From positions 162,680-226,679 of the forward strand of contig JAHBYV010000004.1 of the NCBI GenBank assembly GCA_019635795.1: a stretch of DNA of 64,000 bases. Reading direction: 5' to 3'. Every line of letters starts with the position of its first letter. Position 1 is the first letter of the stretch. The notes below the pieces were generated by a model that searched no databases, was not told the DNA's origin, and worked only from the letters and a program-made list of their open reading frames with translations. The translations under genes and the position numbers were made by a program. Below are positions 43,412-54,726 of the stretch, piece after piece. The stretch comes from Rhizobiaceae bacterium (GTDB taxonomy: Bacteria; Pseudomonadota; Alphaproteobacteria; Rhizobiales; Rhizobiaceae).

Positions 43412-43440
43412 TCTAATTAAAACTTGTGAGGAGTTGGCAA

Positions 43441-44271
43441 TTGGACCTCGGTGAGGTGGAGGAGCAGTTGCGTAGTCTTGGCGTTTCCTCTGGAGATGTC
43501 CTTTATTTGCGCGCTTCTCTCAGCAAAATGCGGCTTCAGCGTGCTGAGATTGAGACGGTTTTTCTGCGCGCAGTGCTTAATGTAATCGGGGATACGGGAA
43601 CAATAATCGTTCCGGCTTTTGTGCAGCAATACCCGCGCTGGAAACGGCGAATTCCCGTTTCGGACAGCACCACACCGTCAAATGCAGGGGCGCTTGCGTC
43701 GCTGGTTCTCGCTCAGCCAGGCTCAGTGCGATCCGGCCATCCTACGCATTCTTTTGCCGGTTACGGTGCAAAAGCACAGCAGATATTGTCCGGCCATTCC
43801 GGGACGGAACCGTGCTTTGGGCCCATGCGTCACGTCGTTAATCTGAACGGGCTCATGATGGTCTTAGGGTGCACGAATGATAGCCCGGGTTTCTCGACCG
43901 TTCATCTTGCGCAGTACGACCTTGGACTATCCCGCCAGCATTATCTCAAATTTTTATACCACGTGCGGTTCAAGGATACTCAAGACCGCGTTTCGTTTTT
44001 CAACCCTATAGAATCGCCTGGTTGCAGCAAGCAGTTCGGTCGCTTTTATGGAATGTACCCGGGCGAGAAACGAGGGTTTGTAGGCCAGGCAGAAGCAATT
44101 TCAGTGCGCGCCCGACATGCGTACCGTCTGGAAAAATCAATTCTCTCGGAAGATCCCGCATTCACGCTTTGCAAAGACCCGCGCTGTCTGAGCTGCGCCG
44201 CGAGGGGATATAACAAGTCTGGGATGGCCAAATACTTCGCTTCAAAACTCGTTGGAACGAGGGGGCGTTGA
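43441..44271 (+). CDS. AAC(3)-family N-acyltransferase
   Basis: A 276-residue cytosolic protein of the aminoglycoside 3-N-acetyltransferase fold family. Seen are the early DVLYLRASLSKM, the TGTIIVPAF strand, RSGHPTHSFAGYG (the conserved RSxHPxxSFxAxG motif) and NDSPGFSTVHLAQ (compare GxxNxxTLHLAE). The last residues include C-x5-C-x2-C (LCKDPRCLSC), possibly a metal site. TTG at 43441 is chosen since GAGGAG precedes it by seven bases; GTG 43426 has none. Many members acylate sugars or natural products and are not resistance enzymes, so resistance should not be assumed. The next gene begins one base after its stop. Confidence 0.85.
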   Translation: MDLGEVEEQLRSLGVSSGDVLYLRASLSKMRLQRAEIETVFLRAVLNVIGDTGTIIVPAFVQQYPRWKRRIPVSDSTTPSNAGALASLVLAQPGSVRSGHPTHSFAGYGAKAQQILSGHSGTEPCFGPMRHVVNLNGLMMVLGCTNDSPGFSTVHLAQYDLGLSRQHYLKFLYHVRFKDTQDRVSFFNPIESPGCSKQFGRFYGMYPGEKRGFVGQAEAISVRARHAYRLEKSILSEDPAFTLCKDPRCLSCAARGYNKSGMAKYFASKLVGTRGR

Positions 44272-44272
44272 A

Positions 44273-45559
44273 ATGTTCGCGCTGGCCAATTCAGTCGATC
44301 TCACTCCGGAGCGGCACATCAAGCTTGTTGGCTATGCGTCGCCCCCCAGGGTATCAACGGGGATCAGATCAAGGCTCGAATCGAACGCAGTAATATTCGA
44401 TCTCAATGGAGGCAAAGCCATTGTGGTCAGCATTGATGCGTTGTTTATCGGGTCAGCCTTTATTGAGCTTGTGCGTGAAAAGCTGGTTGATCCCACTGTC
44501 GAGTTGATATTCCTCGCCTCTCACACACATTATGGCCCGTCACTCGATCTTTCCAAGCCCAAACTTGGCGAGACGGATGTGGAATGGTTTCAAAATGCTG
44601 CTGAGATCGTAGCTTCCCAACTGAATCAACTGATTCTTGGGTCTCCCATCGCTGTGCAAGCGTCCTACGCGTCTGCCCCGTGCGAATTGAGCATATTCCG
44701 CAGGCGAAAGTTCCTGCATCCCAAGCGACGACCGCCGTTTGTGCAGCGTTCGGTTCAGATGATGCCAAATCCGCGCAAGAGCATCCCCAACGATCTTCAA
44801 CTATTGAAGTTGAGTTCAAGCGATGGAAGTCCAATTGCATTGATTTGGAGTTGGCCATGTCATCCTGTTGAAGCTTCGGACCGAAACAAAATCAACGCGG
44901 CGTTTCCTGGCGCGGTGCGTGCAGCTCTTCGATCAGAGCTTGGTAGTTCCGTGCCGATCATATTCATGCCCGGCTTCTGTGGCGACATTCGCCCGGCGAC
45001 CATTCACGCGTCTGCAGGTACTGCCTTTATAGACAGATTCAAAATTCCGACTGAGGGCGAGGTCGAAGCGTTCGAAGCTGGTGTAAGTGCTGTGGCATTG
45101 GAAACGCTCGCGTCTGGTTCCCCGTTGAACTTACCCCGAAACGCATCATACGGACGCGTTGAGTTACAACTGTCCGATTTGTTGGATGGTGCGGATTCTG
45201 CGATGCCAATCTCTCACCTTTCCTGCGGCCCATTCAGTTTGACCGCACTCGGCGCGGAGGTCTGTTCTCCTTATCTGGGTCATCTGGCTTTTGATGCAGC
45301 CCAGCCGGTATTTTATACTGGCTGTGCCGACGAAACTTTCGGGTATCTGCCAACAGACGTGCAGATTGCCGAGGGTGGCTACGAAGTGGAGCGTTTCAAG
45401 GGCTTTTTCGAGATAGCCGGGAGGTGGAAGCCGGATGTTATCCGAAAGGTTATTTTGAGCGTACGAGCGCTGCAGGACGGTAGGCGTTCCGGCTCAGGCA
45501 GGCTTCACGAATCCGTCGAGGACCTTTTTCTGTCCCGCCTTATCGAAGTCGATGGTTAG
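44273..45559 (+). CDS. Neutral/alkaline ceramidase-fold protein, cytosolic
   Basis: A 428-residue protein I place in the neutral ceramidase superfamily from its motif order: ASHTHYGPS (His84, His86), SWPCHPVEAS (His197), PGFCGDIRPA (residues 234-242), LGAEVCSPYLG (Glu329) and GCADETFGYLPT (Tyr358). Neutral ceramidases bind zinc through two His, a Glu and a Tyr; all four have counterparts. The serine of the GDxSP catalytic motif is replaced by Arg240, so ceramide hydrolysis is doubtful. There is no signal peptide. It forms an operon with the AAC(3)-family gene. Its last 21 codons run antisense across the 3' end of uvrD/pcrA, which suggests the reading frame was extended after insertion here. 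Confidence 0.75.
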   Translation: MFALANSVDLTPERHIKLVGYASPPRVSTGIRSRLESNAVIFDLNGGKAIVVSIDALFIGSAFIELVREKLVDPTVELIFLASHTHYGPSLDLSKPKLGETDVEWFQNAAEIVASQLNQLILGSPIAVQASYASAPCELSIFRRRKFLHPKRRPPFVQRSVQMMPNPRKSIPNDLQLLKLSSSDGSPIALIWSWPCHPVEASDRNKINAAFPGAVRAALRSELGSSVPIIFMPGFCGDIRPATIHASAGTAFIDRFKIPTEGEVEAFEAGVSAVALETLASGSPLNLPRNASYGRVELQLSDLLDGADSAMPISHLSCGPFSLTALGAEVCSPYLGHLAFDAAQPVFYTGCADETFGYLPTDVQIAEGGYEVERFKGFFEIAGRWKPDVIRKVILSVRALQDGRRSGSGRLHESVEDLFLSRLIEVDG

Positions 45560-49698: not shown

Positions 49699-52600
49699 AT
49701 GCTTGCTCGAGTTTTTGTCATCGTAGGTGGGTTGATTGTGGTGGCGCTGACGGCGGCGCTGGTCGTACCCTATTTTATCGACTGGTCTACCTATCGTACC
49801 AGTTTCGAAAGGGAGGCGAGTGCCGTTCTTGGCCGCGAGGTCAAGGTGAATGGCGCTGCCACCGCGCGCCTTCTGCCGTTTCCGTCTGTGACGTTCACTG
49901 ACGTCACAGTGGCTGGCATTGACGGTAAGAACGTGGCGATGACTGTGGAGGAATTCTCCATGGACGCCGAGCTTGCGCCGTTTCTCAGCGGTGATGTGCT
50001 GATATTTGATATGCGGCTCGTTCGTCCGCGAGCTGTCGTGAACATTGATGATAGCGGAAGGGTGGATTGGGTCCTGCGCCCCAACACTCCCTTCGATCCG
50101 AAAAATATCACGCTGGAAGACGTTTCTGTAACCGATGGGGAGGTGCGCGTTCGCACCGCAGGTGGTGCCGAGCGTCAGTTCACCCAGATCAATACCGCCG
50201 TCACGGCGCAATCTCTGGCCGGCCCCTGGCGTGCGGATGGAACTTTGCGCCTTGATGGCCGTGAGGCAACAGTCGCAGTGTCCACGGGCATTGTGGATAG
50301 TGAGGGGCTGCGCTTGAAGATCAAGGTTGAGCCGGTCGATGTCGCTATGTCGACTGAGCTGGACGGCGTTGTTTCATCATCGGAGGGCGCGCTAAGGTAC
50401 AAGGGCAAGTTCCATGTCGCCGAACGACTTGCTGCACCCAAAGCCGATCGGGACGGCAATACAGAGGAGCAGGTGCAAGCGGCTGGCAACCGGGCAAGTG
50501 GCCGGTTCGAGATGGATGACCGTCAGTTCGTTGTCGATGAGTTCCGGTTTGAATCTGGTCCCGCGAATGATCCTTATGTTGCGAACGGTAGTGCTTCGAT
50601 TCAGTTTGGCGGGTCGCCACAATTCGCGATAAAGGCAACCGGTCAGCAAATATTTCTGAACGATGGCGGGGATGGCCTTGGCAATGCCCGTCTGGCAGAC
50701 AGAATTTCTGCCTTGTCTGAAGCTTTGGCGCGCGTGCCTGTACCGGGAATTCCCGGTACCGTCGATCTGAAACTTCCGGCGATCGTGACGGGTGACACAA
50801 CAATTCGCGACGTTACGCTGGAAGCCGCAACCGCACCGGGTGGTTGGGACGTCCAAAAACTGACTGCTGTTTTCCCTGGACGCACGACACTTGAGGCTAA
50901 GGGGGCTCTCGTTGCGCGACCTGCCCTGGATTTCAAGGGCCATTTACTTGTTGCTGTGGGGCAGCCGTCAGGTTTTGTTGGCTGGCTCGCCAGCGATATT
51001 GACGCGCCTGTGCGCCGTCTTTCCAAGGCCGGCATAGATGCGAATGTGGAGCTTTCCGCGAATCGTCTGGCATTGAAAGACGTGGAATTGATTCTTGGTA
51101 ACGCAAAGTTTGCCGGGAGCATTGAGCGGGTTGACGGCCAAGGCGCGAAGCCCCGGATTTCGGTTGACCTGATTGGCGCAGCAACATCCGCCGATGAAGC
51201 GTCTGCGCTGGCATCGTTCTTTATCGATGGAAAGGGCGACACTCGCCTTGGTGACTATGATGTCAGCCTCAAGCTGAAAGCCGGACCCGTTGGCGACGCG
51301 CCATTGAGAGCCGATACGGCCGACATTGCCCTTCGCCTTTCCGGACAACGTCTTGAGGTCGATCGCTTCTCAATCGTGGGGGTTGCTGGCGCGTCGGTCG
51401 CTGCAACAGCACGGATCGATCAGATAGACAGAAGCCCGAAGGTTACGCTTGACGCGACCTTGCTTGGCGACGATCTCGCACCCTTCGTTGAGCTGATGAA
51501 CAGCCGGGCGCGAAATCCGCTGACCAATTGGCTAGCGTTGAGCGCGAAAAGCTATACTGGTTTGCTTAAAGGCGCGCGGATCGACATTGTTGGCGACGGC
51601 GAGATGCGCGATGCTTCAAAGGGCGATCTTCGTATTTCTGCGAAAGGTGCGCTGGGCGAAACCTCATTGGATGCAAGTTTGAATGCGTCCGGCCAATTGT
51701 CTGAGCTGGCGGCTGCGGACATTGACCTCAAGGCGAAGCTGTCAGCGCGCGATGGTGGCGCATTGCTAGCCTTGGCGGGAGCTCCGGTGTTGCCATTGGG
51801 GCTGGTTGGCCCAGCCGAATTCGAGTTGGCGTCCAAAGGCAACGCTGCCGCGGGAATGGATGCTTCCTTCAACCTGAAATCACGACAGGGTACCGGGTCG
51901 TTCAAGGGGCTTGTTTCGTCAGCCGCCGATGGATTGCGCGTTAAGGGCACAGCGGTGCTTGATGCGTCAGACATAGAGCCGTGGCTGATGACTACCGGAT
52001 TTTCAGTCCCTGGCTTGGGGACGGGCATGTCTGCGAACGTCAAGGCAAATGTCGAGTTCAGCAAGGGTCTTCTGATTTTAAATGGGCTGGATGGAACTAT
52101 GGCCGGAGGTAAGGTTTCCGGCGATCTCAGTGTGGAAACTCGCGAAGGCTTGCCTGTCGTTTCGGGTGCGCTTGATCTCGGTCAGTTGGATTTGGGGCAG
52201 TTTGCTCTATCTGTCCTCGGACCGGATGTACTGGCTGATAACAGCGGCCAATGGTCCAGTATTCCGTTTCAGCCAACGAACAACGCGCCATTGCGAGCCA
52301 AGATTGATGTAACGACATCAACCTTGGTGTTTGGATCGCTTGAGGCTCAGAACGCTGCATTGTTGCTGCAAGTGGACGACAGCGGCCTCAAGGCTTCAGA
52401 CATCCGCGCGCAGTTGGAAGGTGGCTCGTTGTCTGCAATGTTTGAACTCAAGAACAGTGCGGCGACCGGGCTTTTTTCCGGACAGTTCAAACTCAGCGGT
52501 GCCCAGCTCCAGAGTTTGTTCCAAAAACTGGGGCTTTCCGGTGCTGATGCATCAGGAAAGCTGGATATGTCGGCTTCGCTAACGGCGAGTGGGCGCTCTA

Positions 52601-54726
52601 TCAGTGCGATGGTCTCTTCATTGTCGGGCACAGGCACGGCAAAGATTGGTGGAGCTTCGATCAACGGACTGGATCCTGCCGCCTTTGGCCAGCTGATCCG
52701 CGCGGTTGATGATCTCGGTCATGATGTCGAAGCGATCCGCAAATCCGAGATAGCTCCCGAGATCGTTCAGAAAGGTTTGTTCCGGGCTGACAGCGCCGAA
52801 GTTGCTTATACGGTAGCCGGCGGTGTTGCCCGTATCCCGGCTATCGTGTTTGAACGACCCGACAGCACATTGAATGGCGAGCTGAAACTGGATTTCAACC
52901 AGTTGACTGTTCAGGGCAAGGGCTCGCTGATCTACAAACCCGGCGAAGAGGCGCTCGTGGGGTCAGATCCACAGGTTGACCTGATCCTTTCTGGCACTTT
53001 GGGTTCGCCTGCTTTGAGCATTGATGCTCAGCCACTGACGCACTTCCTTATCCAGCGCGCGCTCGAGATTGAACAGGTTCGCGTAGAGGGTATGCAGGAC
53101 AATATGATGGAAAAGCAGCGCCTTCGGCGCGAGGCGAAGCATTTCGCAACCATCGAGAGCGAGCGCAAACGCGCGATTGAGGAGCAGAAGCAGCGTGAAG
53201 AAGAAGAGGCTCGACAAGCGGAAGAGGCCCGTTTGAAGGCTGAGGCGGAAGTTCGCCGCAAGCTGGAAGAGGAGGCAGCTCGCAAGCTGGCTGAGGAAGC
53301 CCGGATAAAGGCCGAAAAAGAAGCTGCTATACAGGCCGAGGAAGAGCGTTTGAGGGCGGAGGCCGAGGCGCGTCGTCTGGCCGAAGAAGAGGCCGCGCGA
53401 AAAGTCGCCGAAGAAGCTCGACTCAGAGCGGCCGAGGAAGCTGCTCGAAAGGCTGAAGCAGAGCGCTTGAAAGCAGAAGCCGAAGCTCGTCGCATCGCGG
53501 AAGAAGAGGCTGCACGCAAGGCGGCGGAAGAGGAACGCCTGAAAGCTGAAGCCGAAGCACGTCGCTTGGCTGAGGAACAGGCCGCTCGGAAGGCTGCCGA
53601 AGAAAAGCGCCTTGCTGCAGAAGCTGAGGCCCGGCGTATAGCTGAGGAAGAAGCAGCACGTAAATTGGCGGAGCAAGAGCGCGTGAAAGCAGAGGCCGAA
53701 GCGCGTCGATTGGCTGCCGAAGCGGCTGCACTGAAAGCCGCCGAAGAAGCTCGTTTGAAGGCCGAATTGGAAGCGCGCAAGATTGCTGAAGAAAAGCGTC
53801 TCGCGGCTGAGGCTGAGGCGCGGCAACTTGCTGATCAGGAAGCGGCACGTAAGGCTGCCGAGGAAAAGCGTCTTCAGGCAGAAGCTGCGGCTCGCCAGAA
53901 GGCGGAGGAAGAGGCTGCACGGAAGGCTGCTGAAGTCGCGAGGTTGAAAGCCGAGCTTGAAGCTCGCCGTATTGCTGAAGAAAAGCGTGTGGCGGCAGAA
54001 GCAGAGGCCGAACGTAAAGCCGCTGAGGAGGAAAAGAAGCGCATCGCTCAGGAAGAAGCAGATCGCAAGGCTGCCGAAGCAGCGCGCATCAAGGCCGAGG
54101 CCGAAGCGCGCCGTGTTGCAGAAGAGGCGCAGCGCAAAGCGGTCGCGGAAGCGGAGGCCCGGAGAGCTGAGGAAGAAGCTAGACTTAAGGCTGAGGAGCA
54201 GGCCCGACTCGCCGCAGAAGCAGCACGACTTAAGGCCGAAGCGGAGGCGCGGCTGGAGGCAGAAAAAGAAGCTGCACGGAAAGCCAAGGAGCTCGCTCGT
54301 CTGAAAGCGGAAATGGAGGCTGCTCGCGAATCAGAGCAACAGCGTCTTGCTGCAGAGGCCGAAGCTCGGCGTAAAGCGGAGGAGGAACTTGCGCGCAAGG
54401 CTGAGGAGGAAGCGAGGCTGAAAGCGGAGCTTGAGGCCGCGCAGAAGGCTGAGGAAGAGCGCCTCAAAGCTGAGCCGATCACACCCGATCAGGGTCCGAT
54501 TCCAGGCGGGCGTCCTGTCGCTGTTGAAGCAGAGCAGCCAAAGGCCGTTTCAGAACCCGCGCCTGCAGAACAGCCTGCCAAGGAGCAACCCAAGCGGACG
54601 GCGAAGCCCGTGCAGCAGAAGGCGCCGCCGCGCGCCCCGGTCCGGCGCAACGCCCCGGCCAATGGGGATTTCCCTCCAGCGCCAGAGCCATCGCGCGTAC
54701 AGCAGTTCCTGCGATCCCTGCAATAA
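49699..54726 (+). CDS. AsmA-family protein with very long charged helical C-terminus
   Basis: A 1675-residue inner-membrane-anchored protein. The N-terminal span (residues 3-25) and following [24 protein letters not shown] identify an AsmA-family member; such proteins form long lipid-transport grooves in the periplasm. The AsmA-like beta-rich part runs to about residue 1130. From about 1136 to 1592 follows an almost unbroken Ala/Glu/Lys/Arg-rich helix-forming repeat (units like [18 protein letters not shown]), similar to the central domain of TolA, and then a Pro/Ala/Gln-rich tail of about 80 residues. The helical part is much larger than in any AsmA protein I know. It is preceded by a 110-base gap after the flavoprotein gene. 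Confidence 0.85.
53107..54474 (+). repeat. Repetitive coding region for Ala/Glu/Arg-rich helix
   Basis: Within the AsmA-family gene, about 455 codons encode degenerate tandem units of roughly 11 to 17 residues based on (E/K)[20 protein letters not shown]. The DNA repeats itself with many synonymous and conservative changes. Such sequence tends to vary in length by replication slippage, and assembly of the region may be imperfect. Confidence 0.8.

Follow-up and report, generated by a model that had tools for sequence, protein, structure and literature searches.

This analysis concerns a single gene within a window of 64,000 nucleotides from a Rhizobiaceae bacterium (GenBank assembly GCA_019635795.1, contig JAHBYV010000004.1, positions 162,680 to 226,679), which an earlier note had described as encoding an AsmA-family protein with a TolA-like helical extension of about 455 residues. 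Judged from its sequence, the 1675-residue product is a member of the AsmA family, as that note had proposed (PF05170, 63.6 bits against a gathering cut-off of 29.8 in a Pfam search of the open reading frame, ORF), and more precisely the long AsmA paralogue found widely among Hyphomicrobiales. Its charged arm is probably a real feature, an extreme case of one found across the order, and an assembly artefact is improbable. The mechanism that we propose, to which we give about an even chance, is that of an AsmA conduit anchored in the inner membrane, in which a conserved root carries a stiff charged spacer helix, followed by a linker and a tip that would dock on a partner in the outer membrane or the cell wall.

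The extension proved to have the announced length, and the Pro-rich tail said to follow it was also present (residues 1593–1663). Pro and Gly are absent throughout residues 1132–1592 (461 residues), and the stretch that composition sets apart as the arm (1145–1592, 448 residues) is made of 32% Ala, 27% Glu and 25% Lys plus Arg, with 11% large hydrophobics. Its 125 acidic and 110 basic residues (His excluded) leave it nearly neutral overall, with alternating signs, and Glu and Lys/Arg recur with the same period of 7.9 residues. Opposite charges spaced i,i+4 occur 56 and 87 times in the two directions, 143 in all, where 500 composition-preserving shuffles average about 60 (standard deviation about 4 per direction), and like charges at this spacing occur 6 times against 60 (standard deviation 5.9). 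A heptad was sought in this arm and none was found, the hydrophobic power reaching just 4.9 at 3.61 residues and the Ala peak lying at 3.96. The period test is able to detect heptads, since it yields a sharp one in the arm of a remote relative from the order (locus L120), with powers of 18.0 for hydrophobics and 26.5 for Ala, both at 3.50. With opposite charges favoured at i,i+4, like charges excluded and no heptad, the arm resembles the single α-helix domains, which are described as charge-rich, monomeric and distinct from coiled coils (PMC5812594, accessible text). It has in common with these eukaryotic domains the opposite charges along the helix and the scarcity of hydrophobics; it differs in being about one third Ala and in its position on a protein of a lipid-transfer family presumed to be periplasmic.

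Comparison with relatives showed the extension to be less isolated than the earlier note had taken it to be, and no addition to this one protein alone. Among the 80 orthologues kept of 144 found (42–58% identity, Mesorhizobium and kin), a tail follows the common core in all 80, spanning 121–256 residues (median 181) in the 78 that are complete; the remaining two (L049 and L060) run off their contigs and are included in counts out of 80 or 81. In the order as a whole, a core match was obtained in 275 of 297 genomes (E 1e-10), and tails were read in 98 of these 275 plus two genus mates of the window. The first 60 of these loci, chosen by taking the longest open frames, then spreading over families and adding the two genus mates, all have a tail, of 61–964 residues (median 185.5), a choice that over-represents long tails. 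A further 40 loci also have one in every case (59–266 residues in the 39 complete ones, L249 being omitted because it runs off its contig). Thus, across the 80 orthologues and the 100 chosen order loci, of which at least two duplicate orthologues (L116 and L119 share their contig and tail lengths with L004 and L031), the tail always stands after the core and mostly measures 100–260 residues, which rules out an arm unique to the window's protein. The orthologues have the region, mostly in a shorter form; its absence from all of them would have counted against the earlier note.

The window's own tail is 553 residues long, against 238 and 194 in the two genus mates, and among the tails read it is exceeded in four genomes, which form one supported clade within one family (621, 628, 780 and 964 residues; the Ala-rich tails of L120, L121, L122 and L124, family f16). 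In a tree of the core, built by a quick method from 58 of the first 60 loci and containing several long branches, the window groups with its genus mates with a support of 100. Since the other long tails fall in a separate clade, arms of such length evolved on at least two occasions, and on this comparison the window's lineage is one that lengthened a tail that already existed.

The charge pattern extends to these relatives. It was scored on the longest run lacking Pro and Gly as opposite pairs above 1.2 times and like pairs below 0.8 times the expectation, and it is present in the window's protein and all 80 orthologues (81/81), in 43 of the 47 remote order tails having a run of at least 40 residues (from 56 tails, two genus mates and as many Mesorhizobium-type loci having been set aside from the 60), and in 35 of 36 tails of the second sample (from 39). 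A first pass had kept 52 of the 60 order loci, eight being lost to a longer antisense frame, and all 60 were later recovered; of the 60, an initial charge-pattern comparison and the root comparison used 52, the period test 49 and the upstream control for the broader tip motif 48.

The two ends of the extension behave differently from its middle. When conservation was computed over the 81 sequences in 1638 windows of 37 residues, gaps being counted against the arm, the highest value was that of residues 1112–1148, with a mean of 0.954 compared to 0.80 for the core; the mean fell to 0.18 in the arm and stood at 0.69 in the last 15 residues. In this root, hydrophobic or Ala positions kept by the order loci and the window are mainly 1119, 1121–1122, 1126, 1129, 1132, 1134, 1136–1137, 1142 and 1146, suggesting an amphipathic stripe (peak at 3.40) that can be called only moderate because its power is equalled or exceeded in 61 of 2000 shuffles.

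At the other end, a helical tip motif closes 70 of the 78 complete Mesorhizobium-type tails (shuffles: mean 1.8, maximum 6), with no occurrence in two upstream control stretches, and a stricter form of it occurs in 68 of the 80 orthologues (two of which are cut off) and in none of 3920 core segments. Among the remote tails, the pattern P-[LMF]-x-[LIV]-[TLVRK]-P was found in 16 of 56 (shuffles: maximum 4) and in 8 of the 39 of the second sample (mean 0.25, maximum 4; one in the upstream control), and the broader P-phi-x-phi-x-P ends 18 of 56 (shuffles: maximum 8) and 12 of 39 (maximum 7; control 3). The narrow patterns were derived from the first sample, and the second comes from the same families and is not independent by descent, so that the counts overstate independent events. 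From these alignments, the tip is conserved inside lineages and differs between them, and a single universal motif is ruled out. Tails ending in a third way, with Y-x-x-LP-x-G as in RYITLPNGRVVPLPN, were noticed in L133, L134, L149, L165, L228, L252, L258 and L259, belonging to families f41 and f28.

When 240 genomes were sampled from the class, among them the window's own and no fewer than two more from the order, 36 gave core matches, 33 of them covering the N-terminal part only. The helical tip pattern ends 8 of 18 loci from outside the order (L209–L226; shuffles: mean 0.4, maximum 3), a hint that in AsmA proteins of the alphaproteobacteria a short amphipathic end may be of older origin. 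For these 18 loci the longest frame was used unchecked, and in at least one case (L221) it seems to be the wrong one. The AsmA-type protein of one of the 18 (L217, genome G338) combines an arm of AAAEK repeats with a C-terminal tip, QQFINDILKSLGGG, that closely resembles IDNLLKSLDGG of Mesorhizobium; convergence or transfer might explain the likeness.

The earlier note had named a frameshift near codon 1130, and collapse or expansion of repeats, as ways in which the extension might turn out to be unreal. The frameshift was looked for and is absent, the ORF staying open to residue 1675, and exact repeats of at least 20 bp are absent from the tail DNA as assembled, whose tandem-repeat rows are 70–75% alike apart from one 15-base row; this makes an assembly artefact unlikely. 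The arm nevertheless repeats itself at the protein level at offsets of 15, 24, 39 and 63 residues, which suggests that its units arose by duplication. At offset 24, identical residues are written with differing codons in 140 of 210 cases (0.67, where independence expects 0.64), and this mixture rules out recent slippage. At the same offset, charged pairs have the same sign in 137 of 148 cases and opposite signs in 11. In a simulation of random substitution (0.4 per site), residues that stayed the same had differing codons in 0.27, compared to the 0.67 seen; even so, opposite i,i+4 pairs numbered 42 where there had been 144, and some 13 stops arose. If the units did arise by duplication, the sign register was kept in spite of the mixing of codons, which points to selection having maintained it.

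What the rest of the protein may look like comes from an AlphaFold2 model built from an alignment (A1) of 28 of the 80 orthologues. The core, residues 26–1110, was predicted with a mean local confidence (predicted local distance difference test, pLDDT) of 79.1 and a predicted template modelling score (pTM) of 0.50; helix 2–25 is followed by mainly strands as far as 1109, and the beta core then gives way to a single unbroken helix, 1111–1199. The helical nature claimed for the arm was thus borne out in the model, which carries the helix to residue 1199 only. Residues 1–28 have a pLDDT below 50, and helix 2–25 is presumed to be an inner-membrane anchor from the likeness to AsmA and TamB. The N-terminal helix, the long beta core and the AsmA match recall the AsmA/YhdP/TamB superfamily of bridge-like lipid transfer proteins. 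The protein is recognised by neither the TamB nor the YhdP model: the TamB C-terminal domain (PF04357) is not among its Pfam matches up to E 1, the single match of the genome being a separate gene, TamB, and YhdP (PF13116) scores 13.9 bits, under its cut-off of 46. Contig C13 carries one more open frame, of 631 codons, whose AsmA match (25.6 bits) is also under the cut-off (29.8). A profile search against sequences of solved structures returned nothing relevant, the best match being a ribosomal protein (E 0.099).

In the proposed mechanism, the core is regarded as a lipid bridge on the strength of what is known of the family (PMC12436622, accessible text), that is, as a mainly-beta lipid conduit that would lie in the periplasm, anchored in the inner membrane. 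At its far end the root would be a conserved amphipathic helix running on into a stiff, self-supporting charged helix, which would act as a spacer keeping the tip off the mouth of the conduit, and after the Pro-rich linker the short tip peptide would dock on a partner in the outer membrane or cell wall and so hold the conduit in place. Selection would act on the helix and the charge register of the middle and leave its exact length free, making lengthening possible. To our knowledge, the way in which lipid bridges of the AsmA type make contact with the outer membrane is an open question outside TamB. The accessible text of PMC12800296 describes the C-terminal strands of TamB as pairing with the TamA barrel in the outer membrane, and it is by analogy with this docking of the TamB far end that the root, arm, linker and tip, in which the present protein ends in place of such strands, can be read as a docking arm. 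At 1.5 Å per residue, a straight helix of 448–461 residues would measure 67–69 nm, so that, as the earlier note had reasoned, it is too long to stand upright in the periplasm and would have to bend or run alongside the membrane or wall. For comparison, about 250 Å is given for the model of a Brucella protein proposed as a membrane bridge (PMC12436622). A tether had already been suggested in that note; the conserved root and tip with a middle of variable length add support to the idea, which remains a deduction from sequence. A longer AsmA protein of Brucella may be an orthologue, by order and size; in the accessible part of that paper, a helical tail is not mentioned, and the mutant discussed concerns a potentially "short" AsmA (PMC12436622).

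The likeness to TolA held for composition and failed for homology. The NCBIfam TolA models gave the 1675-residue protein 35.1 bits against 213 and 22.2 against 59.45, with their best stretches on the low-complexity arm, and the TolA end domain is not among its Pfam matches. The genome has its own TolA match on another contig (C29; 61.2 bits, cut-off 59.45), next to a frame that by eye looks like TolB, with a Pro/Glu-rich middle and no helix of the arm's type. This agrees with the accessible text of PMC12204202, in which the helical TolA domain II, reported as 110–335 residues long, is mainly gammaproteobacterial. That domain, too, is a helical periplasmic spacer, with a motor-binding helix on one side and a globular end domain on the other; in the present protein, TolA domains were not found. 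TolA homology of the arm is thus ruled out, and on sequence grounds "TolA-like" denotes a likeness of composition only.

Several observations weigh against the docking-arm reading. The tip changes between lineages, which speaks against one common receptor: the helical form ends 1 of the 56 remote tails and the Pro form the 16 mentioned, many match neither, and the broader Pro motif is also enriched directly upstream of the tip (7 of 48 stretches). A Pro/Gly-free run of 40 residues is lacking in 9 of the 56 remote tails, so that a long helix is not required throughout. The single-helix assignment comes from our own charge and period statistics, and L120 combines its heptad with the same i,i+4 excess (85 opposite pairs against 38 expected, 11 like against 41), so that the pattern alone cannot tell coiled coils and single helices apart. 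Aggregation was reported for designed single helices that were rich in Ala or had several Arg per heptad (PMC5812594, accessible text), and the arm, with its 32% Ala and more Arg than Lys, is of that type of composition. Finally, model confidence falls to 56–63 past residue 1140, residues 1201–1675 lie outside the model, and neither TamB nor another protein of the AsmA superfamily was among the 50 matches listed in a structure comparison.

Three other explanations were weighed. Only the core and the root might matter, the arm being a harmless stretch of low complexity, extended by duplications in frame, whose length has no function. The spread of lengths, from 61 to 964 residues among relatives and from 194 through 238 to 553 inside one genus, is what such tolerated growth would produce, as are the repeat offsets, and the same spread speaks against a simple ruler. 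A single base change turns Glu into Lys, and yet the charge register is retained in nearly all tails tested; the simulation lost most opposite pairs with fewer codon changes than are observed; and the tip past the arm is conserved. With register and tip both counting against a junk tail, we consider this explanation unlikely. It is less probable still that the arms of several AsmA molecules form a coiled-coil rod that bundles conduits. The sharp 3.5-residue period of L120, in hydrophobics and Ala alike, is coiled-coil-like, two others of the four very long remote arms (L121 and L124) have a weak heptad, L122 being unclear, and the amphipathic stripe of the root could serve such an assembly; the window's arm itself has no heptad peak and few large hydrophobics. 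We hold it very improbable that the charged helix acts as a polyelectrolyte lying along the peptidoglycan and anchoring the conduit with no specific receptor for the tip. A straight length beyond that of a normal periplasm and a dense charge would suit this; an arm that is nearly neutral, with alternating signs, would not, and a conserved tip would be unnecessary.

The docking-arm reading can be extended to the whole order, which we do tentatively and regard as rather unlikely to hold in full. The AsmA proteins of Hyphomicrobiales would be tethered bridges that use no TamA-type barrel, a stiff helix of free length on the root presenting a lineage-specific tip to its receptor at the outer membrane or wall; the helix of the window would have outgrown the periplasm and would lie sideways, placing the tip tens of nanometres away; and the long spacer would have originated on two or more occasions, in one case as a charged single helix and in another with coiled-coil-like features. 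Conserved ends, the root and the tip, on either side of a spacer whose length is free would offer a direct and testable handle on the contact between lipid bridge and outer membrane in a large order. The tip peptide is short enough to serve as bait for a partner, and the natural variants, from about 60 to more than 900 residues, allow asking what spacer length does. No description of this tail was found in the searches made of open-licence literature, most subscription papers being outside their reach.

Table. Parts of the AsmA-family gene, in window coordinates
Feature	Position	Strand	Basis
Whole ORF, AsmA-family protein	49699..54726	+	ATG start, 1675 residues, free of internal stops
N-terminal hydrophobic helix, residues 2–25, presumed inner-membrane anchor	49702..49773	+	AlphaFold2 model helix
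AsmA core, residues 26–1110, mainly beta-strands	49774..53028	+	AlphaFold2 model and Pfam AsmA
Helix root, residues 1111–1147	53029..53139	+	Conservation 0.945 vs 0.80 in core; starts predicted helix 1111–1199
Helical arm, residues 1145–1592, charge pattern of single-α-helix type	53131..54474	+	Charge statistics; helix predicted to 1199 only
Pro-rich linker, residues 1593–1663	54475..54687	+	Sequence
C-terminal tip, residues 1664–1675 (12 residues)	54688..54723	+	Alignment with orthologue tips

In the window, the asmA gene sits between a gene for a flavin adenine dinucleotide (FAD) oxidase and sspB, and not beside tolB. Within the flanks fetched, 79 of the 80 orthologue loci have the FAD-oxidase gene upstream of asmA and in its orientation, and 73 of the 80 have sspB downstream in the opposite orientation; in Mesorhizobium denitrificans (L004), the downstream block sspB-DUF2853-thyA-folA is inverted relative to the window. 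No core match at E 1e-10 was obtained in genome G166 and 11 genomes of family f4, small genomes of the order (0.9–1.5 Mb), where loss through genome reduction might be guessed at; some larger genomes are also without a match. Elsewhere in the window (43426–45559), a PF02522 (Antibiotic_NAT) gene with 91.6 bits overlaps by 20 bases another frame that has a sub-threshold alkaline-ceramidase match (22.2 bits, cut-off 32.1), and the two may possibly form a two-gene unit.

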